DNA of 64,000 bases. Origin: Spinacia oleracea. Taxonomy: Eukaryota > Streptophyta > Magnoliopsida > Caryophyllales > Amaranthaceae. Where the stretch lies: contig NC_079490.1 of NCBI RefSeq assembly GCF_020520425.1, positions 44,586,723 to 44,650,722 of the forward strand. The letters run 5' to 3'. The notes beneath the pieces were generated by a model that had not been told where the DNA came from, searched no databases, and saw only the letters and a program-made list of their open reading frames with translations. Numbering within the stretch: the first letter of the stretch is position 1; every line of letters starts with the position of its first letter. Shown one piece after another: positions 2,640-47,184 of this stretch. The position numbers and the translations under genes were made by a program.

Positions 2640-2640
2640 G

Positions 2641-26048: not shown

Positions 26049-26057
26049 TTAGATAGA
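26049..26057. repeat. Left 9-bp target duplication of the giant element
   Basis: TTAGATAGA is repeated exactly at 44324-44332 on the far side, and occurs once, uninterrupted, in the related empty site at 44821-44829. The 15 bp before it (TATAATTGTAGATTG, 26034-26048) also match the empty site (44806-44820). Confidence 0.85.
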
Positions 26058-26116
26058 GGGAGATGATACAGTTACCCTGGGGTAACCTGACTGGACTTAC
26101 CCTGCAATCAGGTAAG
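26058..26116 (+). repeat. Left terminal inverted repeat with GTTACCC motifs
   Basis: The end reads GGGAGATGATACAGTTACCC and continues into GGGGTAAC (26079-26086), so GTTACCCTGGGGTAAC (26071-26086) is a near-perfect palindrome. A second palindromic pair, TTACCCT...AGGTAA, follows at 26097-26114. These are likely transposase-binding sites. Confidence 0.7.
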
Positions 26117-26763
26117 GACATGTCAGCTTGAAATATTAGGTTTTAGGGGGGAAACTTCTGTTTTAAGGGGGAAAATTTTTAAGGCTTTCCGCCATTCTTG
26201 CACTCAGCAGCGCGCAAGTTACCGCCCAATTCTCTCCCAAAAAAAATCCCGCCCAAATTTTGTAACCTATTCCTTAAAAAAAAAAAAAAAAATAAGAATT
26301 CAACCTGACATTTCTGGAAAGAGGTAAATTTTGTTGAAACTCCATTTGATTTCTAATACCTTATCAGTTTTCACTGTGATATATTTCTTTAAAATAGAAC
26401 AATTAAAATCGATTCTTTGGTATGTCTTTTTGTGTTTTTTCTTGTAGTTTATGAAATACTTTATTATCGATTATGTTTATTTATAGTTTATCAGATTGTC
26501 TGTATATCCTATAAATCTGGTTTAATGCGTTTGATTTGGAATGGCGGAGAAAACAATGTGACTGTTAATATGTGCAACAATTAATTATTTTATTAAATTT
26601 TGTATGTAATACAAGTGTACTTTATTTAATGTGTATGTAGGTTTAATAATCATTAAATTTGCAATACTTTTTTATAAATTAAATGGCCGATGATTTAATT
26701 TAATATGTATGAATATTAAATAATCTTGAACTAGTGTTAATTATTTATGTATTTTACAGTGAA
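26087..26763 (+). other. Left subterminal region and transposase upstream region
   Basis: AT-rich sequence with poly(A) runs and an E2F-like word ATCCCGCCC at about 26246-26255. It probably holds the transposase promoter. No gene is visible. Confidence 0.45.
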
Positions 26764-29606
26764 ATGGTTAGTATAGACCTAAATGGTGAACCAGAGGCCG
26801 ACGATGGTACTGTTGTCAATTTTACTACGCCGAACCCCCCTAAAGAAGGAATGCGTTTTGACTCCGGTTTTGAATTTAGTGAATTTTGTCACCGCTATGC
26901 TTACAACGAAGGTTTTGAGATGTTTGTGAGTAGTGATGAGATAAAGAAAGAGTATAAGGATAAGGGTGTAAGTAAGAAAGGTATAGGAGAACTTGAGGCT
27001 AAGGCGCATATGATGCAACGAATAAGATTAAAATGCAAGAAGGGAGGTGTTAAAAAAAGCGAGGGGTCTAATGTTACAGGTTGCAAAGTCTTTGTTTATG
27101 GTTCATGTAAAAATGGAGAGTTTATAGTTGTTAATTGTCATTTGGTGCATAATCACCCTCTAAGCCCCGAATGTAGTCGAATGATGGTTAATTACCGTAG
27201 CATTGATGGAGCTACCTTCGATAGGATAATGATAAATGAAAGGGGGGGTGTGAGCGTTAGTAGAAACTTTGGCACTCAACTGATTGAAAAAGGTGGTTTT
27301 GATAATATTACGTTCAACAAAAGGGATGTTAGAAATGCCATAGCTGTTGAACGTCGTAAAACAATGTTTGAGGAAGGAGATGCTGCCAGTCTTGAAAAGT
27401 ATTTCAAATCACAACGAGAATTGAATAGCGATTTTTATAGTTCTATGCAACGAGATGAAGACGGTATTTTAAAGAACGCATTCTGGTCTGATGCGCGTAG
27501 CAGAGGAACTTGCAAATACTTCGGGGATGTGATTAGTTTCGACACCACCTTCTCTAGCAATAGGTACGTAAATGTATATCGTACTTTTATTAATTAAGTC
27601 AATTATTATTATTTTTTGAAATATATTAGGATGTCATAATGGTTATTGTGTTGGTTTAGTTGTTGTTACTTATTAGGGTTATATATGTATGTGTTTAGTG
27701 TATTTTATTTTAATATATTTATGCATGTTGGTTTGCATGCTGATCATCACTAACGTTAATTAAAAATTTGTTCATTTGTATTAGCATGTCGTAGATAATT
27801 GGTTACGTGGTAGTACACAATTCATGATGATTATATGTAATATTATTAAATAATTTCAATCAAGCAGGTATCGTATGCCGTTTGCCCCTTTTGTTGGCGT
27901 CAACCACCACGGGACATCAATTGTATTCGCCGCCGCTTTAATATCACATGAAGATACTGAAACTTTTGTTTGGGTTTTTGAGGAATGGTTGAAGTGCATG
28001 GGAAAGCCTCCGAAGGGCATTTTAACCGACCAAGACAAGGCAATAGGTAAGGCAATTAGCCTAGTTTTCCCAGGTGTTCCACACCGTCTTTGTTTGTGGC
28101 ACATGCTACAGAATGCCTCTCGGAACCTTGGCAAACTTGCTGAATGGAAAAGCATTGATACACTTATTAGAACGGCCGTTCATGATATGCTCGATCCTGA
28201 GGAGTTTGATGAGGCTTGGTGTCTTGTGATGGACACATATAATCAACGTAAGGGCTGGATGCTGGATGCTTACGATAACCGTCAACAATGGGCTCCAGCC
28301 TACAATAGAGGTAGATTTTGGGCCGGAATGTCATCAACACAGCGAAGTGAAGGTATGAATCGTTACTTCAAAACTCAAGTAGACCTAGAATGTGGATTGC
28401 TGCAGTTCATTAAAAACTATGAGTTTTGTATGAATATAAAGGCAGAGGAAGAAAAGGAGGATAATTTTGATTGTGTAGATAAGCCTCCTCAAATTGATGT
28501 TGACAAGAGTGTGTTAGCTGAGTACGTTTTCCATAAGGTTTACACCAACGAAATGTTTGCTGATATCGTGCGTGAGCGTAAAGGTTTAACCCACACAAAT
28601 GTTACCAAAATTGATGCAATAGGATCACTTATGTTGTATAGAGCTGATGAGAAACTGACCTCCCCTCATTGGAGGAAACGGTTCAAAAGCTACACCGTTA
28701 AAGTAGATAAGGTTATAGGAGAGGTAAGTTGTTCATGTCAGTTGTTTGAATTTAGAGGTATTCTATGTAGGCATATACTCAAAGCCATGGATGTGGAGGA
28801 TTTTCAATTTATACCTGAGAAATATATACTAGATAGATGGAGGAAGCAAGTTAGGTCTTATGAGAGCTTGAGGGTTTCATACTATGATCCGGAGGAATCA
28901 AGACGGCTAGCAAAAGCTAAAGAGCTATCTTTAAGGCACAATTATTTGAAAGAATTGGCCATGCATAATGACGTTGCATACAAGCTGTATACGGAAGCTA
29001 CTAATATTGTTAGGCTAAAAATGGAGGGTGCGGTGGGGATACGTAAAACGGGTGACCAAGGAGATACGTCTATTGTGTGGTGGGATCCTGAAGCACGTAA
29101 TGTGTTTGGTCGTCGTAGGTTAAGGCCAAGAGAGTGTAATGAGCGTGCTTTAAAAAGGACAGTTCAACCCGTTCAAGATGATGTGATTAAAACCCCTGTT
29201 GATAAGAGGCATGTTGGTAGGGCAAAGAAAGGACCTTGTTCAATTTACGACAAATCTAAGAAGAAACAAACATGTACGCACGCCGAGATTGCAGCCAATG
29301 AGGTACTTTTAAGTTGTTTTATAATTATTTTATTAGGTTATTATTTGAACTATTAAAATTTAATAAGGTTTACTCTCATTGTAGGAACTTATCGGCTCCA
29401 TGTATGGGCATATTCCTAGCTACCGGGCTAGGCAAGAACATGCAAACAACGTCAACGATGAACGCGTACATCCTTACTACAATGGACCTGTGTTTGACGA
29501 CATTCCCGAAAGTTCGCAAATAAATTTATGTGAAGATATATCTCAGACTTTCGATTACAATACATATGAATGGCGTACACGACTCGGCGGTCGACTTACA
29601 ATGTAG
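26764..29606 (+). CDS. FAR1/MULE-type transposase, intact
   Basis: Three exons (26764-27563, 27868-29302, 29385-29606) give an uninterrupted 818-aa protein. Residues 30-140 form a FAR1/WRKY-GCM1-like DNA-binding region (GFEFSEFCHRYAYNEGFEMF; Cys91, Cys107, HNH at 129-131). The MULE catalytic core follows, with acidic residues at D260 (SFDTTFSS), D321 or D323 (TDQDKAIG) and E428 (RSEGMN). A SWIM zinc finger ends the core (CSCQ...CRH, Cys555, Cys557, Cys567, His569). It would cut and join the element ends in the nucleus. The ATG at 26764 is chosen because the ORF upstream of it is intron- or leader-like. No stop or frameshift was seen, so this may be an active enzyme. It is also similar in plan to the broken FRS gene at 11464. 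Confidence 0.92.
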
Positions 29607-30427
29607 TTGTTCTTATGTTGTATTTGCTTTAGATTTTGTGGGATGTGGGAATATATTCATTGATGTTTGCTTTGCATTAAACTCGGGCAGTCTACTTTTA
29701 CATATTCAAGTTAATCCAAAATGTTGCATGCATGGATGTAATTTAAGGAAATCAAACTTTTTGTCATTAGCGTGTAAGACTTGTATTAACAAAATATTTC
29801 CAGAAGTGGTATATTGTGTTGAAAAATCCAGTGTTGTTTATCTAATTTTCTGTCCAAAATTAATGTTGGTCCATTTCAAAAACCAAAAAAAAACGGGGGG
29901 AATGGGAGCTGTTGAATAATATGTTCATATTGCGCGTATCAAGTGTCGAACCTCAGACCAAAGGGGTAGCGTTGCTCTATAATAATGCAGTAACCATTGT
30001 GACGTGAGGCCGAAGCCATTGCTCTTACTGGTGGTTTAATGTACATATATTGTGGTCTGCTTAATATTCTCACCTGTTTATACAACGTTAATTAATGAAA
30101 TTCCCCTTTGAATACAAACAATAATATATATATGTTTTATATAATTAAATGTAACAAAATTAATGCAGTTAGAATATTAATTCATTTATTTCGTTCACAC
30201 GTTAGTTGAACTAAAGTATGTAACACATTGGTTCATACTAAATAATTATAGATAATTTTGAAATTCATGGTCATGGTGTTGTGCACCTATGTTGAATTGG
30301 GGACATGATTTCTACAAGTAATTAATTATCTCGTGGACTCTACATTTTATTCTGTTTACACCTTATTTGTATATATAGGTTTTTATAAACATAATATTAC
30401 TCAAGTAAATCAAATTAAAGCAGAGAA
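29607..30427. other. Intergenic region with a tRNA-like sequence
   Basis: AT-rich. It contains the minus-strand tRNA-like motif at 29937-30012, and a TATA word (TATATATA, 30370-30377) 50 bp before the XRCC3-like ATG. A short open frame at 29530-29919 overlaps the transposase end and has no recognisable domain. Confidence 0.5.
29937..30012 (-). other. tRNA-like/SINE-like sequence, minus strand
   Basis: Read on the minus strand it has GCCTCACGTCACAATGGTTAC and later GAGGTTCGACAC, matching in order and spacing the GCCCTCATGTCACACTGGTT ... GGGTTCGATTC pair at 43376-43455 and 43676-43755. It is a third, diverged member of the same tRNA-related family inside the element. Confidence 0.5.
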
Positions 30428-31246
30428 ATGTCAAAAGCAGTTTCAAATGAAAAAACAATTGTACAGAAAATTGCAACTAGGTGCAACGCCATTGACAGAA
30501 TTATGCAAGGCGGTGTAAGTGTTGGAGAAGTGACTGAGTTGTGTGGGGAGAATGCAACCGGTAAAACTCAACTTTGCCTGCAAACCAGTATTGCATGTCA
30601 ATTACCTCCGTCTTTGGGTGGAATGTTTGGAGCTTCCATTTATATCCACTCAATTGGTCCATTTCCTATTCGTCGTTTAACAGGTATAATGCCCCACATT
30701 TTACAATCTCCCATAAATCAAATTGATAACCCTTGTGATCATATAACAACCAAGCAAGTGGAATCCCCGCATGAATTACCTGATGTTCTTGATTGGGTTG
30801 TAAAACTGATTAAGTATTCACATAACACATGCAGGCATATCCGTTTAGTTGTTATAGACTCAATCGCTAGTATTTGTGCTAGCCATTTTGAGAACACGGT
30901 TGAGGGGTTAGACTCACGAACACAATTATTACGTGCCATTGGATACGGCTTACATTCCATCGCCTCTACATACAATGTTGCTGTTATCGTTGTTAATAAT
31001 GTTGTTGATGTGTTTCCAAGCGACCGTGATTCGTCTACAAACTTTATGATGTCATCTGGTCGGAAGGTTCGGCCCGCTTTGGGGAAAGGATGGACTCGAA
31101 ATATTGCAACAAGGTTGTTTTTATCCAAAGCACTTAATCCCGTCACTCAAACGTCTGATAGATTGTGTAGTGTTTTGTTATCTCCTACGCTCGAGTTAGA
31201 TGCTTGTAGGTTTAAAATAACAGAGAAGGGAGTCCGAGATGAGTAA
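30428..31246 (+). CDS. XRCC3-like RecA/RAD51-paralogue ATPase, intronless
   Basis: A single exon encodes 272 aa. Walker A is GENATGKT (residues 40-47) and Walker B is LVVIDS (140-145). The order GGVSVGEVTELCGENATGKTQLCLQ, then QLPPSLGG, FPIRRL and a late SSGRKVRPALGKGW segment, matches XRCC3 more than other RAD51 paralogues. XRCC3 with RAD51C acts in homologous recombination and Holliday-junction processing in the nucleus. The protein lacks an N-terminal extension, as XRCC3 does, and is on the short side for the family. It lies 0.8 kb after the transposase on the same strand, with a TATA word 50 bp before the ATG. The lack of introns suggests a retroposed ancestor or long residence in the element. 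It has no stop or frameshift. Confidence 0.85.
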   Translation: MSKAVSNEKTIVQKIATRCNAIDRIMQGGVSVGEVTELCGENATGKTQLCLQTSIACQLPPSLGGMFGASIYIHSIGPFPIRRLTGIMPHILQSPINQIDNPCDHITTKQVESPHELPDVLDWVVKLIKYSHNTCRHIRLVVIDSIASICASHFENTVEGLDSRTQLLRAIGYGLHSIASTYNVAVIVVNNVVDVFPSDRDSSTNFMMSSGRKVRPALGKGWTRNIATRLFLSKALNPVTQTSDRLCSVLLSPTLELDACRFKITEKGVRDE

Positions 31247-31461
31247 ATTATGTAATTTTAAAGTGTATCCATGAATATTCCTGCTGCGTTAGTCAAAAAA
31301 TGTTCGAAATGTATTCATTGTAGGAGTGCTGACGTTGTTATAAATAAATACATACGTTGAAAATGATCGGTCGTTAATAAAAATACCACAAATAAACCAT
31401 CCAAAATAAGTAAACATAATTCCAAAATACACTCAAACAAGTATACAAAAAGTGGTCTTAT

Positions 31462-34400
31462 TCATAATGAACCAACGTTTTGGGTGATTGTGTTCAGGAC
31501 CTCATCCACGCCTATGTCGTTGACGGAGCTGCCGATTAGTCGTCCGAGGATGTATTTCCGGGCGTCCATCTCATTCTTTTGATAACACTACACGCAGATT
31601 ATGATATTGTTATTATCCTCAGAGGATGTTTTTGAATAACAAGATGTTTACATAATAACCTTAAAAAAATTGAAGACAGATTAACATACCTCCATCCATT
31701 CCCAAGCATCTTCACACGACAACAACAAAAAAATCATACACAATAACCCTCGATCTTCTGAACATTTTTCAGTTATTGGATCCTTTTCATATAAGACACT
31801 ACTCTTAAACGCTTTATCAAAGGTCAAGACATTTGATCCATGAATTGGTTCCAGGTCGCTAAAAATCGGGCCCTGCAATAACGCTTGATTCAGTATAATA
31901 TTATCTACGTGTTAATGTGTAAGATTATTTAGTTTGGAAATCACTTACAATTTTGTTCACAACGGTGTGCAAAAAACACATGTCTGTCATCGGTTTTTTT
32001 CTTGGATCAAAAGCATGGATACGAGCAGGGCTCAGTTTAGGAATTTCCCTAGTTATCCTAATCACCATCCACCGACCTTTAAACGCGATAGGAGCATATG
32101 TCTGCGCAGGTGAACCCCTCTAAAATTAGTTTACAAAAGATTAACAATTATACTCATCGAATCCTGAATACTATCGTAAGATTTACCTTTCTCACTACAT
32201 CCAAATCAATGCCCTTGTTCATGTCATATTTGATCCTATTTCCCATCATTGATAGTGTTTCCACGTAGTCTGCCGACATGTCTTCTGACTCCATCAAGTG
32301 ACTCTGCACATAACAAATTGTTAGCTACAACTGAAGCTCCAGACACCAGTTTGTATTATGGAACAACAATTACTAGACTTACCAAGTAGTCTGGATGTAG
32401 CACGTAATTGTTAAGGCCATGCATTTGAATTATTTCGCCGTTGAGAAAAGAACACCATGCAGACATAATCTAAAGTATTGATATACAACTCAATTAGTAT
32501 GATAATAAGTTTAGTACTAGAAAAAAAAATTAAAAATTCATGTACCTCCATTGTTATTCTTACTTTCCTTTTGAAAGCGTCGTAAAGCATTCCTCTAGTG
32601 AGCTCAATTACACCGTCTCGATACAGAACCTGGTCCCTAAATTTGTTCGCAGCGAGTAATTGTTCTGACACCTTTTGTTGTGTTGGGTCAATCCTTGTCA
32701 AAACTTTCTTATGCCCTCTGTGTCTTAGATCATCATCGGACTGTGTGTGTTCATCACTGTCTTCATCGGACTCTCCATCGTTCCTCTTCTCCTCATCGGA
32801 TTCTCTGTCATCTCCATTGTTTTCATCGGGCTCTCCGTCATCTCCCTTGTCCACACCACCATCTGTCGACTTCCCACCCTACAATTTTATTAGCGTCAGT
32901 ATACTTCCAAATATAGGACACATGTTATATATTACGTGACGCATAACAAATGTTTGTGCACTGACCTCCATCCGGGAAGGCTGCCTCCGTCGTTTTGGAC
33001 GTAAATTTGTTTTCAGAACCTCTGTTGGTGGTCGGGCTGCTGGACCTCCCTTCACTTCAACTCTTCTTTTTAGCCATGGTGGTAGCTCGGACAAATTTCC
33101 AATTGGGTAAGGTTTCCCGTACACGACATCACGAACAACCTTAAACACACACACATCAATGTTAAGTAACTCCTTCATTTTGGAGTAATTTATAAAGGTA
33201 TAAGTTTGTAGAAGAAGTGTGTTACCGGTGCGTGACCGTAAGATCCATCTGGTCCAGTGTCTCTTGATATTAAGGCATTTACCTCTTTGGTCTGCCAAGC
33301 ACCGAGTCTGGGTGAATCCATCTTCCATCCTTTGATTGTTTTCGGGTAATTTATTCTATCTAGATATGCAATCTGATAATTGACATGTGAGTTGGCTATA
33401 TTATGTATTATTTAAAAAATTCAACATTCAAAGCGGACTAATAATAAAACCCTTACCAACAAAACAAAGGGAGAAGCTCTTCCAGTCTCCTTCCCACGAC
33501 CAACCATCCAATCGTATACGAAGCCACACCAATTCCAATCATGAGGGTTTTTTATACATTCGTCCTTAAGAATGTGCAACAACTTTGGCGTAACAAAGTT
33601 GTATCTATTCATGCAGAAGAGACTACCGAAAGTAAGTAGTATAAAATGCCTTAAAAAGACGTGTTGATTATCGACTTCCAGTACTGCCCTGTTGAATAGC
33701 TCAGTGTAATCAATCCCAAAGTTTTGGTCGTACATGTCCTCTAACTGAATTAGCTCAGGGTCATCGAATCTCATTTTATCAAATTCTAAATGGCCCATAG
33801 GTAGCCCAGTAATCCAACCTATCATCTCCTCGTCTATGACAATGTGATAATCATCTCTAATATGCAACGTTTGTGCTTTCCAATCCCACTTACTTTCTAA
33901 CCAAGTCATGAAATACCTATCTACCTTCGTAATTTTCAAGTCTAACACGGACCCAAAACCAGCAGCTTCAATCCAATTTTTCCTAATATCACAACAGTTA
34001 CTGACCAAATCAAACACCAGACCCGGATACGCTCTCAATGCGGTGTGCTGTGAAACAAATAATTACGCCGGACTAATGTCAATTTTCTCTACATCTAATA
34101 CATACACAAAATCAAAGCACTCTAATTGATATATGTGAACTTACCTGTGGCTTAGCTTTGCTCTCCCCCTTCCCCCTAGGAGGCCTACCAGGCCCACCTT
34201 CAATCCATCTCCCGATTGGTTTGGGTTTAGCAGCCCTTTGTTCATCGGTCATTGGTGGCCTCCCTCGCTTGCGGCTTCTAGGTAGTCCATTACGACGACT
34301 CCCTCGTTGGGGCTTAAATTATTTAAATTGATTTTAGTACAAATGAATTGGTAAGACAAAAAATTCAATTAACATGTACAAGTTGTGCAACCTGGGGGAT

Positions 34401-35136
34401 ATCGGTCGTTCGGTTTAGAGTGTCCCAAATTTCGTCCTATATTGTAGAAATTTGAATTAATTACCAGCTATATAAAATTTAAAGCATGCCATTTGAGCTT
34501 GGGGGGTTATAACTAACAACATATTAAAGTTAAAGCATACCATTTGAGCTTGGGGGGGTGGGATTTCAAAAATAGTAGACCCACTTGTACCCTGATTGTC
34601 CTCAATTCCACTAAGTAATGGAGATATATCCTAATATAGATTCATACATTATTTGTTAACAATTTTTCTAATTCACAGTAAAAAATCTACCTTCATTGCA
34701 CAATAATGTATAAAGATTATCAGGAAATGTGCAATACCTCATTTGACTTTTCCGACCGTTCGCCTGTTTGCTCTACGTTTGTCTTATTCGTCTGTTTCAC
34801 CGAATCGGAACGGGTTTTCCGGCGATGCTGGGTGGTGCCTTCTTCTCTAGTTTTCCGGCTACCTTGGGTGATGCCGACTTCTGGAATTTTAGGGTCAAGT
34901 TGAGATGCATCGTCTTGGTTTGTAACAGCTTGGGTTGTTGGGTCTGGCTGGGCTGTTGGGTCTGGTCCAGTTGTTGTACCAGCTTCGGTTGTTGGGTCTG
35001 ACCCCACCAACTCGGACACATTCGTACCGGCGGTAACCGGGGACTCCTCCATGTCGGACAAACTAGACAGAATATCAACGCAAGTTTCAAGTACAGACTC
35101 AAAATTTGATGTTCCAGGATCTTCTTCCCTACACAT
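31462..35136 (-). CDS. Mobile-domain protein with degenerate ULP1-like C-terminus
   Basis: Thirteen exons, all joined in phase 0, give 876 aa: 35136-34738, 34630-34541, 34436-34392, 34312-34145, 34047-33457, 33372-33226, 33139-32966, 32878-32546, 32469-32383, 32303-32187, 32119-31949, 31872-31690 and 31587-31462. Exon 1 is a Thr/Asp/Pro-rich low-complexity region. Exon 4 has AT-hook-like motifs (RKRGRPP, GPGRPPRGKG). Exons 5-6 form a plant-mobile-domain/DUF1985-like region (residues about 235-480). Exon 8 is strongly acidic (GDDGEPDENNGDDRESDE). The C-terminal third (about 650-835) follows the layout of ULP1 (C48) proteases: VIRITREI, HAFDP with Asp, then GLLCMIFLLL with Cys, but the expected His is not visible. 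ULP-like genes are known MULE cargo in plants. A possible 5'-UTR intron ends just before the ATG. Confidence 0.78.
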
Positions 35137-35871
35137 TAACTAACAATGAACATTATTTTTGGAATTAAAACATCTTAAATTATAATTTTGGGTATAATGA
35201 AATGTGAAGATTTTATACAGATCCGAAACAATTAAAAACCAAATTAAATAACTACAATTAATTGGTTGTAAAAACAATTCGAAAATGTTACCTGATTGAG
35301 TAGATTGATAGTAGTTTGGGGTTTGAAGCAGAGAAATTCAGTTCATGTAGAAGAGAGAGAAAAGGGAAAAAAAGAGACAAAAAAAAATCAGTTTTTATAG
35401 TACCCCTATTGTTTATTATTTAACACCGGAAATAAAAAAAAAGTTAAAAAATAGTTAGCCTTGTTCTTCAAGGCGACCCAAATTAAAATTAAAAAACGTT
35501 GACCTTGTTCTTCAAGGCAACCGAAATAAAAAATTATTATACAACATTTATTAATTAAGACCATTTATTATAAAGGGAGTTATGGGAAGTTATCTAATAA
35601 AGGTGTGTTTTTACCACTATTTAGTTATGGATACAGCTTTGCACATACAGATCAAATTAAATTGCAATACGGGCCAAGGAAAAACGAACACTAGTCACCA
35701 ACAAAGTAGCATGGTCAACCTAGAAATCTAATATGGTTTGTGATTGAATGAAATAAGTCGCAAATTTGTTAACACAAACATAAAGCACGAAAATTAGGAC
35801 CCTACGGTATTCGTTAGGCGTCCACGTGCACACCAATTAGTTAACAGCTTTAACAAATTATGTGACACATG
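35137..35871. other. Upstream region of the ULP-like gene
   Basis: It contains the probable 5' UTR (AGAGAGAGAAAAGG region near 35350 on the plus strand, minus-strand leader) and a candidate 5'-UTR intron donor (CAATCAG before GTAAC, about 35292 reading leftwards). Otherwise AT-rich without genes. Confidence 0.45.
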
Positions 35872-36440
35872 GGTTTTGCGTTATGTGTCAACGTGCTCAC
35901 CATTTTGATAGCAACTAAAACAATTCACGGATCATTGTATTCTACTACATACTTTCAACGCATGAAGTAACGCTTAACTGGCGGAGTTAGTTACCCGCAT
36001 ACGTAACTTCCCACGGGTAACATTCCACAATGGTTTTGCGTTATGTGTCAACGTGCTCACCAATTTGTTAGCAACTAAAACAATTCACGGATCACTGGAT
36101 TCTATTACATACTTTCAACGCATGACGTAACGCTTAACTGGCGGAGTTAGCAACCCGCATATATCGCTATTAAATACTTTCAACGTATGATGTGTAACTA
36201 TAAACCACAATATCACTAGAACTTAGCTAATTATTGTGTACGAGGTCACAAATTATTGTGTACGAGGTCACAAAGTAACGCTTAACTGGCGGAGTTAGCA
36301 ACCCGCATACATAACTTCCCACGATAATTCCACTAGGGTTTTGCGTTATGTGTCAACGTGCTCACCAATTTGTTAGCAACTAAAACAATTCACGGATCAC
36401 TGGACTCTATTACATAGCTAATTATTGTGTACGAGGTCAC
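35872..36440. repeat. Triplicated ~160-bp intergenic repeat
   Basis: GGTTTTGCGTTATGTGTCAA begins three copies (about 35872, 36032, 36335), each followed by CAATTCACGGATCA. The companion word GTAACGCTTAACTGGCGGAG recurs at about 35967, 36127 and 36274, and ATTGTGTACGAGGTCAC occurs three times (about 36233-36440). Copy 1 also contains GTTACCC (35990-35996) and GGGTAAC (36015-36021), the terminal motif of the element. The repeat sits between divergent cargo genes. Confidence 0.85.
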
Positions 36441-36809
36441 TAATTTGTTAGCCAGAACATACTATTATCGTATCGTCTAGTAATTGTGTTTAAATTATCA
36501 TGGACATACAGTTATAACAGATAAGAAACTTGGATATTCACGCAATAGCGTAGTATGTGGCCAAATCCAACCTTGTATTAAACTATAAGAACTTATAATT
36601 TAACGTTATAACATAAATAACACGTGGAATTATTTATAATAACGAAATAAATATAGATACAACCACAAAATTATACTTTATACAGACAATATCCGTTGTA
36701 ATTTAATGAATCAAAAACTCCACCTAATATCACTTTTAACACTAGTAATAAAAGCCTATTCCACCTAAGTTGTCACTGTATTGGTCAGTCCCACCGCCCA
36801 ACAATGTAC

Positions 36810-36820
36810 TTGGCGGGAAA
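36810..36820 (-). promoter_or_regulatory. E2F-type site 1
   Basis: TTGGCGGGAAA is the reverse complement of the classic E2F site TTTCCCGCCAA. It lies 300 bp before the 37112 gene. Confidence 0.6.
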
Positions 36821-36995
36821 CACAATATAGAGTATTAGAAATTCTGAGATAAAACAAAAACATTAACGACAAATCCAATACATGCAAATAATATATTTCG
36901 ATATTATTTTTTAAATACCATTAATAATTAAAACCAGATTAACAAAACATTGTACAAGCAAAAATAAATTGTTGTGTAACTATACATTGACATAC

Positions 36996-37006
36996 TTTCC
37001 CGCCAA
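36996..37006 (+). promoter_or_regulatory. E2F-type site 2
   Basis: TTTCCCGCCAA, an exact mirror of the site at 36810, stands just before a TATA word (TATATATA, 37016-37023) and 106 bp before the ATG at 37112. E2F sites direct S-phase expression in plants. Confidence 0.65.
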
Positions 37007-37111
37007 CATCAATGCTATATATACTAATTACAACTACCATGGTTTCCATTCATCAAATACATCCATAACTCATACAGTTAAACAACTCATCTATCCACAC
37101 TATTTCGCAAT

Positions 37112-37676
37112 ATGGTGAGCACAAGGAAACAAGCATCAAAGGGAATGAAGGCATCCGCACAAGGTGCAAACAACCCGATTAAGGTTTGCGGTAAAGGTAA
37201 ATTAATCACTGTTCAAGTTCACTTACATGACTTGAAGTTCGTTTACAAAAAAAACTTACGTAACATTGGATCTCATTGCTCATTTTTGTTGTGTATCAGA
37301 TGTACCACCAACACGGAAATGGTCCAAATATATGGAAGTTGAACTAAAACAAGAACAATTTAGAATTGATTGGAGGAGGTTTATGCGCCTGTTGGTGAAA
37401 CGTTTAGGTCCTTCGGAGATTTCCAAAATGCTTAGCGAACTATACTACGCACCAAATGTTAGCGAAGTCTTTATGGAGGAACGGGATTCATATCTTTTAG
37501 AGAATTTTTCGTGGCAAGATATCGAGCCAAACACAAAAGGCGAACGAGTCGTTGCTGTGGCGAAGGCGGACGACAGACTTATTAAACGTGAGCCGATAAC
37601 GGAAGATACGTACGCATTAAGAGCAGGGAAACAGAAAAAAATTGTTGTGATCGATTTAACTGATGAAACTGATTAG
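37112..37676 (+). CDS. Small protein with C-terminal SUMO-interacting motif
   Basis: Two exons: the first from ATG 37112 to 37196 (or a nearby in-phase donor at 37190), the second 37300-37676. The product is about 153 aa. The N-terminus is basic (STRKQASKGMKASAQG). The middle is helical and charged (KWSKYMEVELKQEQFRIDW, LLVKRLGPSEISKMLSEL). The C-terminus reads IVVIDLTDETD before the stop. VIDLT followed by acidic residues is the canonical SUMO-interacting motif known from PIAS proteins. I recognise no family. A TATA word and an E2F-type site are placed correctly upstream. Confidence 0.7.
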
Positions 37677-38102
37677 TTGATCTGAATGTTGTTTTTTAAA
37701 TAATTAATGTTGGATATTATTTAAAATCCAGTGTTGTTTTTTAATTGTTCTACAGCAGTTACTGTATTGTACTTTTATTAATTAATGGAATGTTTATTGT
37801 TAAAAGTTTCTTTAATTTGTATCATTATACGTATCTCACTCAGAGTGATGAATTACTCACTTGGTTAAACCTTTCAAACCGGTTCCAGGTGAACCCGAGC
37901 ATCGATTCGAATCACAGCCCCTGTCTGTTTTGGGAATCTTTTGTACAAAAAATTATTTTTACTATTATCTACTTTTGTGAGATACTCAATTTGTCTTTGA
38001 AAACATCACCATCAACAAAGAAATTTCCAGAAAAACCGGTAGCACTTTTCCCCCAATTTTTTTCATAGAAAACCCTAACTTTCGCAATCTAAACCCAAAA
38101 AA
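37677..38102. other. Intergenic region between cargo genes
   Basis: AT-rich. About 37895-37925 has CGATTCGAATCACAGCCCCTG, resembling an inverted B box, so another tRNA-related remnant is possible. The last 100 bp look like the leader of the next gene (TTTCATAGAAAACCCTAAC). Confidence 0.4.
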
Positions 38103-39704
38103 ATGGAAAAAGTCGCTGCAAATTTGAGGTAAGATCTTCAGTTTTATTTCATTGTCATTTTTTGTTGGTTGCTCAATTAAATTGATTTCTTGTTCACTAA
38201 AATCTCCAAAAAATTGCAGCAAACAACGGAAGTATAACTACGTTTTCCTCAGCATCTGGCATCGGGGCAAATTCGTTTTCCATCCAATCCGAAGTTACGA
38301 AAAAGGCCATAATGAGATGTATATCATTCCTAAATCTAAACTTGAATACAATTATTTGATTTTTTTAGTTAACGCACTGGGATACGAACGATTCAAGATC
38401 TGGGTTGTTCCAGATCTAAAAAAATTTAAAAAGGAAGGAACTGTGGTAGCAGACGCAGAGCATTTCGACGAACTGATACAGGGTTTGGGGATGGTCCAAG
38501 TAATTATCCAGCCCACAGATGACTTAGGACAAGATCTAACAATGGCCAAGAGGAAGATGTTGGTTCCTGTTGTTCATACCAGCCCAAAAAAAAAGGTAAT
38601 TTTTTTGTTTCCTTTTTTATTTTGTGCACAAAAATTTGTTATGCAATTTTATTCTTGGTTATCTGCAATGTTTAGTATTTCATAAAATGTTATGCAGAAT
38701 TAATTTTGGTTACCTACAATGTTTAATTTTAATTTAGTGGCAAACTGAGGAATTGTTTTTTTATTTTTTTATTTTTAGTACACAAATAAATTTGGGTTAT
38801 GGAGATCTAAGTACATGATTTTATATTCTAACAGAAGCTTGGAATGAGTTGTGGTGTTAATCAATTTGCAAAACTCGTAGCAAAGTTAACAACTTACCAA
38901 AGAGAGTGGGTTGTGGATATGGGTTTCGAGGAATTACTACACATGAGGGTAATTAACATTGAACCAAAGTTCGGTTTTTGGATTACTTCAAAGTTTGATC
39001 CTGAAACATTAGAACTAAAGATAAGGGACAATTACAAGGTTAAATTAGATGAGGAAATGGTTTGTTGGGTACTAGGTTTGAAATCCGGTGAACATCTGAT
39101 CAATCCTACAAGATCGGAAATGTGTGTTGATTACCACAACAAAAGGCAGGAGAAGAAAAATAAATATTATGGTGCAATCAAGGAGTCGGAGGTGTATTCA
39201 CAGATTATTCAAGGTGACCCAAACGAACAAAAATTCAAAACCCAATTCCTGCTATATGCACTAGGAACAATTCTGTGTCCCATGAGGGAATGTGGTTGGA
39301 TTAGCCCGCTTCATGCAAACGTTTTAGAATATGCGACAAAGGCGAGTCATTGTAATTGGGCAAAGTACTTGTTAGATTGGCTAGTGACTTGTGGCCAGCA
39401 CCTACATACACCGGAAGAGGGTTACGGGGGATGCACCCTACTGCTACTTGTAAGTGATTATTAACCAACTTTTTCCTTGCAAATATTTTCAATCTAAATT
39501 ACTAATCTGTGTAACATTTTTCAGATAATATACATCGATAGATTGGCATGCTCAAGCGTAAACCTCAATATAATACCAACTGCGTGTCGCCTACGGATGT
39601 GGGACCAACACAATGTCAACAGACTCCTGAAATACGACCAAGGACCAAATGGTGAATATGGTTTTGGTGAAGTGGATGAACAATTCACCTACGGAGATGT
39701 GTGA
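38103..39704 (+). CDS. PB1-like plus plant-mobile-domain-like protein
   Basis: Four exons (38103-38128, 38220-38595, 38835-39449, 39525-39704) give 398 aa with no interruption. Residues about 10-110 resemble the PB1-like domain found at the N-terminus of MuDR transposases (FLSIWHRGKFVF, NYLIFLVNALGYERFKIWVV). Residues about 140-398 are homologous to exons 5-6 of the ULP-like gene: IRDNYKVKLDEEMVCWVLGL against IRDDYHIVIDEEMIGWITGL; the intron after ...LLLL/VLL before IxYxDR is at the same place and phase in both. The function of this domain is unknown. Here it lacks any protease part. Confidence 0.8.
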
Positions 39705-40070
39705 TCATAGCGCAACAAGTTGGTCACTTAATCTTTATTTCATTTAGTAATGAGACTTCATTTAATTCACTGGTTCTACATTTTTATAGTTGTACAAGTG
39801 TAATAATCGTGTTTACTTCTTATTTGTTTCGTTTTATTTTTGGGACAAATATTGTATGCCAATTACATACTCGTTTTTTTTTTTGTGTGGAAATTATGTG
39901 TGACAATTAAGGGAGTATATGAATTTAAAACAAAAAGTCCAAGAATACTAAAAAACACAACGGTAATATATTTTGAATAAGAGCACTATAAATTGGAATC
40001 ATTTCAGCCCATTTTTAACAAAAACACAATACACTATTCCAACAAAAATTACAAGTCATGGTTGTTGAGG
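39705..40070 (+). other. Intergenic region before the GRF-type gene
   Basis: AT-rich 3' flank and short upstream region. CACTATAAATTGG (about 39984-39996) contains a TATA-like word 75-85 bp before the next ATG. No gene is seen. Confidence 0.45.
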
Positions 40071-40576
40071 ATGGAGCACCAAAATCATCAAGTTCAATTA
40101 GAAGTAGTCCTTGTAAAACTCGGTCTCAAGTTAGATGCCATCACGGTTATCCAGCAAAACTGCAAGTGTGCAAACACACTTAAAATGCGGGACAAAGATT
40201 TTACTCGTGCCCGACTTGGAAGGTACGTAATTAGTGATTCAGTGTATAGTTTCAAAATAACGCACATTTGTAATTTATTTATTTGAATCAGGATGATACT
40301 TGCGGTTTCTTCTATTGGGAAAATGAAATAAACAATAACATAGTGCAAATGTTACAAGATGACAACTACAACCTCCAGGAAGAGATCATGCGCCTTACAA
40401 TAGAAAACGAAAACCAAAAAATGGAGAATAGGTTGCTGAAGTGTACGGTCACAAGCTTTGAAGGGAATAATATGAACATGGTGAATCAAATTGTTGAAGC
40501 AAAAAAGGAGAAATTATTTTATACCATTTGTTTCATGTTCTCCATTTTGTTACTCATTATCTCGACTAAGTTTTGA
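40071..40576 (+). CDS. GRF-type zinc-finger, coiled-coil, tail-anchored protein
   Basis: Two exons (40071-40226, 40292-40576) give 146 aa. Residues 31-61 look like a GRF zinc finger: CKCANTLKMR, GRY, then TCGFFYWENE. Cys31, Cys33 and Cys56 are present but the usual Cys after GRxFY is missing in this splice model. A coiled coil follows (about 66-120), and the last 20 residues are a hydrophobic anchor (FYTICFMFSILLLIIS). GRF fingers bind single-stranded nucleic acid in repair proteins such as APE2 and topoisomerase III. Plant GRF proteins with a tail anchor exist but their role is unclear. The donor at 40227 (GTAATT) is weak, so the exon junction may differ. Confidence 0.65.
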
Positions 40577-41076
40577 CTAATGTACCATGTACGAATTTTA
40601 AATGTTTAATTTCAAAGTTCAATTGAGTTTTCATTTTAATAATTTCTTTTTATCCTTTATTTTTTTTTACCTTTCATTACATATGCCTAGGAGACATAAT
40701 AATTACCTTTACCATTTGCGCTTTTCAATGTCACAAAATACCTTTACTAGATTTGTTACGTTTTACATAAATACACGCATGTTGATTGTTTAAAATACAA
40801 CTTGAATTAACGACAACATCGTATAATAATAAAATTAAAACATTATAATTAAAGAACATATAAGATATATTAATGAAGGTTGGAATAGAGGAAAGAGGTC
40901 CCAAAAAGTCAAAAAAGACTCTTACACAACCAACACTACAACCTAAACACTTCCGAAGTTCAGCGTGTCAAATCACTTCCCCCAAATCTCTCCTCTACAA
41001 AAACACTCCATCCCTTCACAATCTTCCACATTACTCCACCCAAAACCAAAAAAAACCTTCAAAATTTGAAAAAAAA
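40577..41076 (+). other. Intergenic region and leader of the NAC gene
   Basis: AT-rich. From about 40930 the sequence becomes C/A-rich (ACACAACCAACACTACAACC, CAAAACCAAAAAAAACC), typical of a plant 5' leader running up to ATG 41077. No gene is visible. Confidence 0.5.
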
Positions 41077-42789
41077 ATGGAGTCTGACTTGGGATACGAG
41101 GTTCACAATGTTGAAGATCAGGGGAAGAACGGAAAAGACGACGGCACGGTGGAGGTAGACCCAATTTCTTTGTTGGAAAAGGTATGAAACTAGCTCAATT
41201 CACTTTGACATAACTGATCTACCTTTGTAAGTTACACTCTTGGGGTTAATTGTATGTTTCTTTTGAATTGATGTTGAGTTTCCAAGTTCTATGCCCTTAT
41301 TTTTGCGTAATTCGAAGTATTTTCCATGGATTTTTTCGACTGAATTTTGTTTGGGTAGGTTTATTCTTAGATGTAACATTCATAAATCTAAAATATTTTG
41401 TGAATTCAGCTGAATTAGGTACTTAATTCAAATTGGGGGTTTGATTTTACCATGTAATGACCTTTGATTAGTTGATTATATAGTGTGGTTGATAAAATTA
41501 ATCGACAAACAGTACAAATATGAGGGTTTTAATTGAGATAATTGAGATCATAATCTTAATACAATTTGGTATTCTTCCTTAGTTTGTTTTATAAATTAAT
41601 TGGATGACAATGTACAAGTCATAATAATAACATTGAATTCTTTGAGGAATTTGCTAGTTTACCAACCTAAGCATGCACACAAAAGGGGAAAGGGGTAAAA
41701 CAAAAAAAACATACTACTTTTGGTTCACATTTAAAGTGGGGGAGAAGTAAACAATATGGTGATATTTTAGATGTAGTAGTGATATTAACTAAACAATGAT
41801 TTGTCAAATATTTTCATTGACAGCTGCCACCGGGTTTCCGATTTAACCCGACGAAAGAAGAGTTAATTATGTTCTATTTACCGAAGAAATGTTTGGGCCA
41901 AAACATGGGTCCGAAATGCATAAATGACGTAAACATTTATGATCACTCGCCTTGGGAATTACCATCATTGTCATACCTACATTCTAAAGACCGTATTTGG
42001 TATTTCTTTTGCCCGAGAGTAATGCAAGATAATGGTAAGACCCCTAGGAAGACTCTAAAAAACGGGTATTGGAAAGAAACGGGCAGGGTAACCACACTTA
42101 CTCATAAGCAATATCATGTTGGTGATCTTAAAACGTTCATCTACCACATAGGGGTGGCACCAAAAGGAGAACGTACTAATTGGGTTATGAAAGAATTCAA
42201 CTTAACCGAATACATGATACAAGAAATGTGTGTGGTAGATAACTCATACGTGCTTTGCAAAGTGTATGAAAAAAGTGGTCCGGGGCCAAAAAATGGAGCA
42301 GAATACGGGGCTCCATATGACAAGAGTGAATGGGACAACAAGTTTGATAACCAAAACACACACAACTGTCCTAGTGTGTATGTTAACCAAGTACAAGGAA
42401 GTGATCCTAGCAACTCGAATTGTGGTCAGAACATCAATGTTAGTGAAACCAATGCAACAAACTTTGCAGGCATCGACCCTACTTTCAACATCGAAGAACT
42501 GCTAGAGGGTTTCACAAACCAAGAACAAACCACTACGGCAGATGTGCAAATGGAGGATGCATTCACGATTGAAGAACTAGTCCAGGGTACGCAAAACGAC
42601 AACAACAACAACACCTCAAGTCTAGTTCAAATGGAAAGTGATATAGATGATCTAATGGGTGATCCAAACCAAGATGACACAACTTGGATCGATGCGATGG
42701 TAGAACCTAGTTTCACGATTCAAGAACTTTTTGGTGGTCCGGATATTACTCTTGATGAATTTCTTGATTTGGATTTTGGGAAACTATGA
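41077..42789 (+). CDS. NAC-domain transcription factor
   Basis: Two exons (41077-41181, 41824-42789) give 356 aa. The NAC domain starts at residue 36 with LPPGFRFNPTKEELIMFYL (subdomain A). It continues through WYFFCPR, GYWKETGR, VGDLKTFIYH, TNWVMKEFNL and SYVLCKVY, covering subdomains B-E. The C-terminal half has three copies of a motif FNIEELLEG/FTIEELVQG/FTIQELFGG in an acidic, Asn-rich setting, ending DEFLDLDFGKL, which resembles an activation region. The short first exon before the domain (35 aa, acidic) is unusual, as is having one intron; many NAC genes have two. The gene lies inside the giant element, so it is probably captured cargo. Confidence 0.88.
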
Positions 42790-43331
42790 AGAACTTCACC
42801 AAGGTATATATGTCTAAAGGTACAAAATTAACTACTAATTGTATTAGTTTCTCTACTAATACTAACTAGAGTACAACTTTTGGTGTATTGGTGGTACTTG
42901 AACATTATTTTGTATTGGTGCTAGTTGAACATTATTTTGTATTTTGGTGTATTGGTGCTACACACAAGTATGGCTTGTAGCCAATGTATAACTTTTTGAT
43001 CATATGGCTGCCTTTAGTTTGTTGGGCAAAGGTACAGGTAGATGTAGTCTGTTGTTCTATGGGAAATTGGTCTTTTGGTGACATACTTCATTTTGTGTTA
43101 CACATTTGGTGCTTAAATATTAGCCCAGAAAATTTATTAAATTCTGGATGAAGTTTATTTTATACCTACATATACTTTATTTACAACATAATTGGAGTTG
43201 TATTGCAGAATTAAATAACACACTTCAAGTGTAACAAAAATATTTAACTTTGGATGAAATTAAATTCATAAATGTATAAACATTAATTATAACATATTTG
43301 GACTTGTATTATTGATATTATACTATAGATA
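42790..43331 (+). other. 3' flank of the NAC gene
   Basis: Probable 3' UTR with repeated TTATTTTGTATTGGTG words (about 42900-42960), then AT-rich sequence. No gene. Confidence 0.5.
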
Positions 43332-43920
43332 TAAAGGTCAAATACATTTTTGACAACTACATAGCAATGGGTTCGCCCTCATGTCACACTGGTTACACAC
43401 TTACACCTACACTAAAGCATTGATATCACGATAGACGCGGGTTCGATTCTTGTAAACAGCAAAAGTAAAACACTCCCCCCCCCCAACCTCTTTTTTTGGA
43501 TCTGTTCCAAAACAATTCAACGTCTTCAAAAAACATTTAGTCTTTTTTTTTTATTAATTCCATACACCAAACAAATTAATCGATTATTAACCATCTTTCA
43601 TTCCAGAAAATATATGAATTATATACAGATATACAGGTCAAATAAATTTTTGACAACTACATAGCAATGGGTTCGCCCTCTTGTCACACTGGTTACACAC
43701 TTACACCTATAATAAAGCATTGCTATCACGATAGACGCGGGTTCGATTCTTGTAAACAGCAGAAGTTCAACCCTCCTCCCCCCCCCTTTTTTTTGATCTG
43801 TTCCAAAACAGTTCATCGTCTTCAAAAAAAATTTAGTCTTTTTTTTATTAATTCCATAAAACAAACAAATTAATCGATTGCTTACAATCTTTCGTTCCAG
43901 AAAATATATGAATTATATAC
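43332..43920 (+). repeat. Two tandem 300-bp units with tRNA-like motifs
   Basis: The segment from about 43332 repeats in register 300 bp later (43632). Each unit has GCCCTCxTGTCACACTGGTT and CGCGGGTTCGATTCTTG, the latter a B-box match (GGTTCGATTC), followed by C-runs and T-runs, and ends ATATATGAATTATATAC. This fits a tRNA-derived SINE-like sequence duplicated in tandem. A diverged inverted relative lies at 29937-30012. Confidence 0.75.
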
Positions 43921-44275
43921 ATTTTTTTTTTAATAACTTCGATATCATCGAAATTTCATAAATAACAAAAAAAAACTACATCTGAAAGAAATTCCAAGAA
44001 CTGCAAAAACAAAAATAGCCGCACAGAAACGAGGATTGAAAAATAATCAAAAACCATAAGCAAGAACAGCAGTGCTTTTCATTCTCATCTGCAAACTTTC
44101 AATGAAAATGGTGAACATTGGAAATAACGAAATTTACCACAGAAAATAAAAAGGTAAAAGTTAATTCAATACTTTGAATTTCAAATTCAAAATGGGGTTT
44201 CAAAAATTTGGTGCTGAGTTGGATAGGAGTAAGCTGACTGTGATATGACTAGGATTTTAATAGCCAACCACAGCC
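43921..44275. other. Right subterminal region of the giant element
   Basis: A-rich sequence without genes between the tandem units and the right terminal motifs. Confidence 0.5.
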
Positions 44276-44323
44276 CAGGGTAACATTACTAGAGTTACCC
44301 AGAGGGTAACTGTGGGTTTTTCG
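44276..44323 (-). repeat. Right terminal inverted repeat with GTTACCC motifs
   Basis: On the minus strand the end reads CGAAAAACCCACAGTTACCC and continues CTGGGTAAC, matching the left end from ACAG inward. GTTACCCAGAGGGTAAC (44294-44310) is a palindrome with a 3-base centre, and a further CAGGGTAAC lies at 44276-44284. Confidence 0.7.
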
Positions 44324-44332
44324 TTAGATAGA
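44324..44332. repeat. Right 9-bp target duplication of the giant element
   Basis: TTAGATAGA, identical to 26049-26057, is followed by AGGATTGTTTTGAAG, the same right flank as in the empty site at 44830. Confidence 0.85.
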
Positions 44333-44876
44333 AGGATTGTTTTGAAGAATTCAAAAAAAGTTTGTTGATGACTAATTATGACGTCTATGCAAGTTAATAT
44401 TGTTTCATCTTTCTAACCATTATTCAAATCTTATGTAACATGACAATGAAGTAGCAATAAAAGTTTCTGACCAAGTCACTATGGTTTAAGGTCACTATAT
44501 GAAGGAAGAAAGTCATTATAGGTGTTTATATGGTTTAAGGTCACTATAGGAAGAATAAATGTTATTTTGATTCAAAAGAGTATACTTCCTCCGTCTTTTA
44601 ATACTCGCAACGTTTGTTAGTTTCACGCATGCCAATGCACAACTTTGATCATTTATATCTTAAATTCTTTTTATGCAAAAATTATAAAAAGTTGATATTT
44701 TGAAAATACACATTGAGACGAATTTAACAAGATCTCACATGACTATGTTTTATCTTATACAAAAAACACTACGAATAGTCAAAGTAGATTATATGAATAG
44801 CTAAGTATAATTGTAGATTGTTAGATAGAAGGATTGTTTTGAAGAATTCAAAAAAAGTTTGTTGATGACTAATTAT
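44333..44876. repeat. Tandemly duplicated host repeat (copy 1, start of copy 2)
   Basis: AGGATTGTTTTGAAGAATTC to GATGACTAATTAT at 44333-44381 recurs at 44830-44876, and the following sequence (ACGTCTATGCAAGTTAATAT) resumes at 55389 after copia copy 2. The unit, about 480 bp, contains GGTCACTAT words and a Stowaway-like MITE. Copy 1 ends inside the MITE at about 44803, which marks the duplication junction. Confidence 0.85.
44585..44803. mobile_element. Stowaway-like MITE, right end lost
   Basis: It starts CTTCCTCCGTCTTTTAATAC after TA, as does the complete copy at 55621, but the matching right terminus is missing at the tandem-duplication junction. Confidence 0.8.
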
Positions 44877-46319: not shown

Positions 46320-46330
46320 GTCTCCCACTT

Positions 46331-47184
46331 GTCCATAGGGACAAGTGTGCATTTCCTAATTCCTTTGTCGCTCGATGCTTGCTCTTGAACATAAGGTAAG
46401 AGTTGTCATCCTTATTATGTCCAGAGGTGTTCCTCGGTTTCAGAGTTCAACTGATCAAATAAACAGATAATCATAGCCTATGATTCATCCGAGCACGGCC
46501 ATGCATTTCACAGTTTCTAGCTCTCCGAGTGGCCTTGTACAACTTTTAAGCATCTCATCCCGATTTATGGGAGGACAATCCCAATCTTGCGATCTTGAGA
46601 TTAGACTTCGTTTGATAGGTGATTACCTGAGCGTTGCCTTTATAGCCTCCTTTTACGGTGCGACGGTTGGTCAACGTCAAAGCAACCAGTTCTCAAACAA
46701 GTAATCTTCAAATCACTCAGGTATTGAGGATTTAGTGTCTAATAATTTAATGAAATTTACTTATGACAGACTTTCATCTCTTACAGTAAAGTTTCATAGG
46801 TCTTGTCCGATACTAGTCTTCCCAAAGTAAGTATCTATGCAAATGATTATGACATTGCCATGTCCACATAGTTCAAGAAACAGAACTACTAGTCATCTTG
46901 CATTCTAATCGTCTAACGTTTTCTATGCGTCCAATTTTATAGAAAACTCCGATTAGGGACCATTTTCAACCTTTGACATTCAAGTTCACTTGATAGACAT
47001 TTCTTAGTCACAGGACTGGTCCTGACAGTCTATCTTGAATATATCGTCAAATTGAAGGGACTCATCATTTAATAAACCACAAATTAAATGGAAAAATGAA
47101 TTCCTTTCATTTATTGTGAATGATTAACCAATAATGTTTTACAAAGATTTAAACTCTAAAACTTTAAAACATTAAACAGAGACA
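46331..47184 (-). other. 3' noncoding segment of copia copy 2
   Basis: Sequence between the polypurine tract (GTCTCCCACTT, plus-strand view, about 46320-46330) and the end of pol. It is equivalent to 9228-10080 of copy 1. No gene is credible. Confidence 0.8.

Follow-up and report, generated by a model that had tools for sequence, protein, structure and literature searches.

A giant Mutator-like transposon of spinach with a FAR1/SWIM-type transposase and six additional genes

Introduction

A stretch of 64,000 nucleotides from Spinacia oleracea (C4:44586723-44650722 of the 894 Mb spinach assembly), hereafter referred to as the window, contains a FAR1-related transposase gene and, within the same 18 kb, six further genes, two of which code for an XRCC3-like ATPase and a NAC transcription factor. 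This locus raises two questions: whether the whole gene set moves as a single Mutator-like element (MULE), and whether the additional genes serve the element or are only carried along. We are confident that the unit is a copy of a giant, autonomous-type family of spinach MULEs with a FAR1/SWIM, Jittery-like transposase. Roles of the additional genes can be proposed with less certainty and are considered after the evidence for movement, gene content and conservation.

Boundaries and movement of the element

Features that delimit the element are the following (positions are those of the window).

26049..26057, no strand: left 9-bp target site duplication TTAGATAGA
26058..26104, + strand: left terminus GGGAGATGATACAGTTACCC..., imperfectly similar to the right end in inverted orientation, beginning with base 11
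26058..44323, no strand: transposed unit of 18,266 bp, delimited by the empty site and full-length copies
44276..44323, - strand: right terminus ...GGGTAACTGTGGGTTTTTCG
44324..44332, no strand: right 9-bp target site duplication TTAGATAGA
44796..44876, + strand: empty paralogue of the target site, lying beyond the element and identified by a joined-flank match

The perfect 9-bp duplication and the shared inverted termini had both been proposed in the initial annotation, and both are present. Inverted similarity starts 10 nt inside each duplication, where ACAGTTACCCT is found inverted at both ends; over their outermost 10 nt, the left and right ends show no match. Terminal inverted repeats of MULEs are often long; here the similarity is imperfect and spans about 40 nt. 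Its score of 29 was reached by 18 of 20,000 random pairs of 60-mers from the window and by 5 of 20,000 pairs from the element interior. Considered alone, these end features are moderate evidence.

The boundaries are independent of these weak terminal repeats because the window also holds a paralogous insertion site that is uninterrupted. Joining both flanks through one TTAGATAGA gives a sequence whose match to positions 44796-44876 is gapless and covers 81 nt (96.3% identity, E=1.1e-33); the left flank has only 34 nt in common with this empty site. The paralogue belongs to a stretch of about 500 bp that occurs twice to the right of the element, once at 44323-44800 and again at 44820-44876, resuming at 55382-55836 past a copia-type long terminal repeat (LTR) element. 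The MULE sits in one copy of this duplication and the LTR element in the other. Inside the duplication (44323-44876, 55382-55836) lies a stretch that we take to be Stowaway-like.

We wondered if the same unit occurs elsewhere in the genome, a check suggested by the initial annotation. Spinach protein P0029 from NCBI, identical to the window transposase (gene A) at 814 of 818 residues, was used as query and gave at least 119 exon matches and at least 55 candidate transposase loci that were scored. Eight loci were read: five of the closest, two with 84% and one with 73% transposase identity. Two of them proved to be further full-length copies with duplications of their own. At C4:69.06 Mb the whole element is matched at 98.0% and is flanked by the perfect 9-bp duplication ATAGCAATG; at C3:142.5 Mb the match runs at 99.4% from the first base and at 99.3% to the last, within the perfect 9-bp duplication TATTCTACC. 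Two other close copies are interrupted. The copy at C5:20.6 Mb is 99.4% identical up to position 42480, where other sequence intervenes, and that at C2:32.65 Mb (cC2) is 99.7% identical over 26066-41179, where a copia-type LTR element intervenes; NAC sequence is found beyond the interruption in both. At the fifth locus, C6:110.1 Mb (cC6), the transposase is 93% identical and interrupted by some 10 kb of unrelated sequence; genes C and D follow.

Aligned differences from the window amount to 61/18,240 positions for the C3 copy, 52/16,386 for C5, 43/15,120 for C2 and 202/18,208 for C4:69, that is, a divergence of 0.28-0.33% for three copies and of 1.11% for the fourth (C4:69). With an assumed 6.5e-9 to 1.3e-8 substitutions per site per year, a rough age of 0.1-0.3 million years would follow for the younger copies.

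Target site duplications were also found in more diverged members, designated the e group. The copy at C5:18.61 Mb, 18,883 bp long, is bounded by the perfect 9-bp duplication TGGATGTAG. Perfect 9-bp duplications likewise bound the copies at C3:7.70 Mb (CTTTACTAA), C5:5.04 Mb (CATAAGAAC) and C4:89.4 Mb (CGGGAATGT), which were read at their ends only, the ends being 18.1-18.7 kb apart by coordinates. In total, seven of the eight copies whose two ends were both sought have a perfect 9-bp duplication, and all seven sequences differ; for the copy at C2:108.9 Mb, the fetched stretches did not show a right end. The left 9-mer of a further diverged copy (dC4) recurs once, inside the element, and the stretch read stops short of the right end. 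These copies also settle the length of the duplication as 9 rather than 10 bp, within the 8-11 bp characteristic of MULEs.

The segment 26058-44323 thus moves as a unit and makes 9-bp duplications. An MULE of about 18.3 kb moving with its transposase and six genes, as initially described, is borne out by three full-length copies with different flanks and different duplications. Movement of a sub-segment alone was not seen in copies with both ends read; shorter derivatives were not searched for. A 182-nt version of the left terminus gave 40 scored genome-wide matches, several of which lie away from scored transposase matches; these could be shorter, non-autonomous derivatives.

The window element is not a lone oddity: 55 transposase loci were scored, and gene order A-B-C-D-E-F recurs in three diverged copies, dC4, dC6 and eC5 (for gene F, dC4 shows the first exon alone). 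Among loci with 72-73% transposase identity, 17 have scores within about 10 bits of each other and open frames of 909 or 917 amino acids, and 15 of these have no stop in the match. Such near-equal scores and open frames suggest a recent burst in the 72-75% group, of which four copies have perfect 9-bp duplications.

Genes of the element

Gene models were built by hand from open reading frames (ORFs) and splice sites. They are listed here with the internal repeats.

26764..29606, + strand: gene A, FAR1-related MULE transposase, 818 amino acids, open (exons 26764-27563, 27868-29302, 29385-29606)
30428..31246, + strand: gene B, XRCC3-like RecA/Rad51-family ATPase, 272 amino acids, single exon (PF08423, 1.1e-30)
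31462..35052, - strand: gene C, 848 amino acids, 13 exons, introns all GT..AG, domain common to gene E
35866..36466, no strand: internal tandem repeats separating gene C from gene D
37112..37676, + strand: gene D, 153 amino acids (exons 37112-37196, 37300-37676)
38103..39704, + strand: gene E, 398 amino acids, 4 exons (38103-38128, 38220-38595, 38835-39449, 39525-39704)
40058..40576, + strand: gene F, GRF zinc finger and hydrophobic tail (exons 40058-40222, 40292-40576)
41077..42789, + strand: gene G, NAC transcription factor, 356 amino acids (exons 41077-41181, 41824-42789; PF02365, 7.8e-33)
43317..43921, no strand: tandem duplication of about 300 bp close to the right end

Coding frames contain no stops (one in gene F), as opposed to 6-114 stops in the other two frames. 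According to the initial annotation all frames were open and six cargo genes intact. This holds for six of the seven models (A, B, C, D, E and G) and hence for five cargo genes; the GRF gene has an in-frame TAA at codon 42, which among five close copies aligned is present in the window copy only, and its GRF match (PF06839, 6e-07) was obtained with the fragment downstream of this stop. Domain matches together with gene models do establish the transposase, XRCC3-like, VIDLT (gene D), GRF and NAC genes.

The gene A product contains a MULE domain (PF10551, 2.7e-30, 105.2 bits, the cut-off being 27.6) and a SWIM zinc finger (PF04434, 2.7e-08). Its FAR1 domain match (PF03101, E 0.24) reaches 12.6 bits, below the cut-off of 28.1; NCBI labels its close relatives FAR1-RELATED SEQUENCE 5-like. 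The MULE domain, accompanied by SWIM, and the empty site support the view that the element is an MULE. Within MULEs it likely belongs to the FAR1/Jittery group, and we do not class it with KI-MULE or VANDAL elements.

Gene B codes for a protein with Walker A (GENATGKT) and Walker B (LVVIDS) motifs, recognized by eye. Its best PDB match is XRCC3 (1.1e-29, 106.7 bits); the margin is small, as a second XRCC3 scores 84 bits and RadA 82 bits, and among NCBIfam models RadA and RAD51 rank first, all below their cut-offs. Spinach relatives of gene B are labelled by NCBI as 'DNA repair protein XRCC3 homolog'.

Genes C and E share a homologous domain (27% identity, 2e-29). Gene C also has AT-hook-like stretches RKRGRP and GPGRPPRGK, noted by eye. 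The whole 848-residue product has no Pfam match, and its C-terminal 275 residues have neither a Pfam nor a PDB match up to E 10. The initial label 'ULP-like' is therefore unproven, and neither ULP nor DUF1985 identity of gene C finds support in Pfam or PDB. Gene E, whose spinach relative P0152 is 57% identical, has no Pfam or PDB match either, so that its description as 'PB1/mobile domain' is not upheld: the sole support comes from P0151, a spinach protein resembling gene C and not gene E, which UniRef labels 'Aminotransferase-like plant mobile domain'. Compared with Pfam, P0151 and P0152 gave one insignificant, unrelated match each.

The gene D product ends in IVVIDLTDETD, which holds the SUMO-interacting-type motif IVVIDLTDE.

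No RNA family reached its gathering threshold at 25500-45500, and the only tRNA candidate, an unassigned one (25277-25346), lies outside the element. Counts of k-mers, examined for a short non-coding target motif of the VANC kind, showed modest enrichments and nothing compelling.

Comparison with known elements

Kochia (Bassia scoparia) and spinach belong to the same plant family. The mobile element at the kochia EPSPS locus is 16,037 bp long and carries an FHY3/FAR1-SWIM gene, a gene of the ubiquitin-like superfamily and two others (PMC6808082). Most susceptible plants have four to six copies, and the authors consider the element possibly still mobile (PMC6808082, PMC9297870). Compared by description only, it is the nearest in kind to the spinach unit. 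The parts of the description available to us list four genes without an XRCC3-like or NAC gene, RAD51 being there a host gene in the duplicated segment, and give no target duplication or terminal repeats. An EPSPS cassette of Amaranthus palmeri is reported to contain plant-mobile-domain genes, NAC, an Ulp1 gene and transposases (PMC5240378).

Nearest in logic are ULP1-bearing MULEs and VANC. Extra genes are also carried by KAONASHI/VANDAL MULEs of Arabidopsis, which have no terminal inverted repeats (TIRs), and by ULP1-bearing MULEs of melon, rice and grape (PMC13317346, PMC5735166, PMC2528002). According to the portions of these papers available to us, the ULP gene of KI-MULE is oriented opposite to the transposase, as is gene C in spinach, and VANDAL elements combine fast-evolving VANC with a conserved transposase and non-coding tandem repeats. 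The spinach unit differs by the absence of an ULP1 or DUF1985 match and by its FAR1/SWIM-type transposase; for its XRCC3-like, GRF and NAC genes the same portions describe no counterpart in KAONASHI, VANDAL or ULP1-bearing MULEs.

Plant mobile domain proteins are also encoded by MULEs, a likeness that extends to spinach through P0151, the relative of gene C so labelled by UniRef; in the available text the authors speculate that MULEs use this domain against silencing (PMC5418596). Fusions of this domain with the transposase occur in several grasses and Amborella (PMC5418596), whereas spinach genes C and E are separate and have no Pfam match.

Jittery-type transposases have SWIM (or CCHC) on the C-terminal side and FAR1 on the N-terminal side, and in the accessible part of the survey their plant subgroup has TIRs of 39-292 bp or none recorded (PMC6446971). 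The FAR1 match of the spinach protein differs in falling below the Pfam cut-off. Further, the survey gives Jittery-type elements one ORF and a duplication that is either 8 bp long or left unstated (PMC6446971), as compared with seven genes, 18 kb and 9 bp in spinach.

Searches of the PMC literature, outside of which most subscription papers lie, brought up no description of an XRCC3-bearing MULE among the papers listed. As far as its available part shows, a survey of spinach repeats counted 167 full-length MULE-MuDR elements with a combined length of 49,524 bp; since these are about 300 bp each, elements of 18-kb size are outside its full-length set (PMC6337768). Large multi-gene MULEs are thought to be unusual, transposition efficiency being said, in the text available, to drop once the cargo exceeds about 6 kb (PMC6431247).

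Conservation of the gene set

We wondered if the additional genes are preserved along with the transposase. Twelve loci were covered far enough to include the respective place, and in 11 of them the XRCC3-like gene adjoins the transposase: the window, four close copies (in one of which it has a stop), dC4, dC6, eC5 and three partly seen loci of the d group; cC6 is the exception. Loci L045-L047 have no XRCC3-like match, and their stretches end before the expected place. Walker A and B motifs are kept, as judged by eye, in dC4, dC6 and eC5, and the [IV]DL[TS] core of gene D in dC4, dC6, eC5 and cC6.

Ratios of nonsynonymous to synonymous divergence (dN/dS) between the window and diverged copies were calculated by the Nei-Gojobori method with one script. 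For gene A they are 0.13 (dC4), 0.16 (dC6) and 0.15 (cC6), for gene B 0.12 (dC4), 0.10 (dC6) and 0.11 (eC5), and against eC5 they are 0.19 for gene E and 0.18 for gene F; dS is saturated in the remaining pairs and in all comparisons of genes C and D. These values indicate purifying selection on genes A and B. Protein identity to dC4, dC6 and eC5 is 0.70-0.82 for A, 0.59-0.83 for B and 0.68-0.75 for D, as opposed to 0.45-0.49 for C and 0.48-0.51 for E.

For the NAC gene, loci were grouped by identity to P0029, and a NAC match was counted if located on the same strand, downstream and within 30 kb. Such a match was found at all 11 loci with at least 90% identity, at 18 of 20 with 82-89%, at none of 23 with 72-75% and not at the one other locus. 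With random placement, the mean was 0.08 and the maximum 2 of 55 loci with NAC (1000 trials). Many of the 82-89% loci have two NAC matches about 2-3 kb apart. Altogether, 53 of the 129 places with NAC matches in the genome are downstream of transposase loci; outside the closest copies identity of the match is mostly about 33-50%. One NAC match, at C6:759793-760755, is 98% identical to that of the window and has no scored transposase nearby; perhaps it is a partial or rearranged copy. A recent capture of NAC by the window subfamily alone had been considered, as no NAC match was found in the fetched parts of d and e copies; the genome-wide NAC search overturned this idea for the two closer groups.

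Close copies have also decayed. The transposase frame is disrupted at C3:142.5 Mb; the copy at C4:69.06 Mb has lesions in the transposase, C and E, that at C5:20.6 Mb a stop in the XRCC3-like gene, and that at C2:32.65 Mb one changed splice acceptor in gene C.

Several observations weigh against a family of elements whose additional genes serve the element. The ends are weak as inverted repeats, matched in score by 18 of 20,000 random pairs; moreover, the first 8 terminal bases are missing from cC2, and cC6 and dC6 differ there. No XRCC3-like match was found at cC6. NAC was not detected in the 72-75% group, where a very diverged one could be missed, and ULP1, DUF1985 and the plant mobile domain were not detected by Pfam in C and E. 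Gene F (identity 0.46-0.56) changes as fast as C and E. Stops occur in C (dC4, cC6), in C, D and E (dC6) and in E (eC5), a few of which are perhaps due to alignment entering introns. The dN/dS ratios are rough because dS spans 0.24 to 2.7, and they carry no test against 1; selection could also act on host-useful copies instead of the element. In kochia, the available text reports no expression for the four genes of the element (PMC6808082).

Another view is that the additional genes are passengers, host genes or fragments captured in the manner of Pack-MULEs and of no service to the MULE. MULEs often capture host sequence, mostly as decaying fragments, as stated in the parts of the reviews available (PMC13317346, PMC6431247), and the GRF stop in the window, single-gene lesions in other close copies and helper-gene stops in some diverged copies are in keeping with this. 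Against it stand the same gene order in dC4, dC6 and eC5, dN/dS of gene B as low as that of gene A, preserved Walker A/B and SUMO-type motifs, and, in the two closer groups, NAC downstream of the transposase at 29 of 31 loci, although NAC identity outside the closest copies is mostly about 33-50%. We regard passengers as improbable.

It is also conceivable that the unit arose by a single fusion of adjacent elements, one comprising A-C and the other D-G, which now move together. Homologous domains in C and E would fit such an origin, and so would the tandem repeats at 35866-36466, located between the two halves and containing GTTACCC/GGGTAAC motifs that occur at the ends as well. Neither terminus, however, aligns significantly with the internal repeat region (the lowest of four tests gave 11/200 shuffles), and a composite with internal element ends is not supported by these alignments. 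Any fusion must be old because order A-F is also found in the e-group copy eC5. A composite origin is accordingly given little credence.

Finally, segmental duplication of a host gene cluster without transposition, in favour of which the ~500-bp tandem duplication adjoining the element might be quoted, is already contradicted by flanks that differ, by identity ending at the element ends in the full copies read, by seven different perfect 9-bp duplications in seven copies and by the empty paralogue, and we consider it next to impossible.

Possible roles of the additional genes

Under the reading that we prefer, a transposon family whose additional genes serve the element, the functions of these helper genes are what we infer from their relatives and motifs. 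The transposase would cut at the GGGAG.../...TTTTTCG ends. An excision gap at an 18-kb element could be refilled by homologous repair only; an XRCC3-like protein encoded by the element itself, with dN/dS near 0.1, would be useful there. Together with host RAD51 or RAD51C, this protein might promote homologous repair of the gap on the sister chromatid template, so that the donor copy would be restored and copy number would rise. We put this forward tentatively; it is possible, and the odds are somewhat against it.

Proteins C and E may be VANC-like, countering silencing by recognizing the element's own non-coding repeats, with D recruiting the host SUMO system. The contrast in identity between C and E on one side and A and B on the other resembles that between VANC and VANA as given in the accessible text (PMC5735166). 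This proposal we hold to be quite possible, if short of an even chance. SUMO is in use by both host silencing and host repair. The SUMO-binding-type motif of D would accordingly point to either of the two.

The NAC protein, whose gene lies beside two of the three transposase groups, might drive transcription of the element in chosen tissues, and gain or loss of NAC from one group to another may determine the tissue and timing of the element's expression; we are doubtful of this role. For each helper gene, the alternative is some other role serving the element.

Put together, a transposon with its own mediator of homologous recombination, anti-silencing proteins and NAC-dependent timing would be modular and resemble a mini-genome, in which XRCC3-like steering of repair would let an 18-kb cut-and-paste element multiply. 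As a whole this picture is rather unlikely to hold in every part.

Neighbourhood of the element

About 13 kb left of the element, an ORF on the - strand (11987-12655) codes for a FAR1 DNA-binding domain (PF03101, 2.6e-16) and represents a second FAR1-type gene or gene piece. Another ORF, on the + strand (18429-20237), ends with a partial LHW-type bHLH domain (PF23176, 1.1e-11) and represents all or part of a host LONESOME HIGHWAY-like gene. Two copia-type LTR elements are located in opposite orientation at 1267-11463 and 44877-55382 (LTR identity 98.8% and 94.9%, respectively), the latter inside the MULE-free copy of the ~500-bp duplication.

Implications

In annotation, the NCBI names 'DNA repair protein XRCC3 homolog' and 'FAR1-RELATED SEQUENCE' give no sign of the transposon origin of these spinach genes. 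Large elements of spinach have multiplied within about 0.3-1.1% divergence while keeping a Rad51-family gene under constraint. This poses a testable question: must large cut-and-paste elements bring their own repair helper to survive excision? After VANC, the family also offers another plant system where transposon anti-silencing may be sought, and it may bear on the similar-looking element of kochia that is tied to EPSPS amplification and herbicide resistance.

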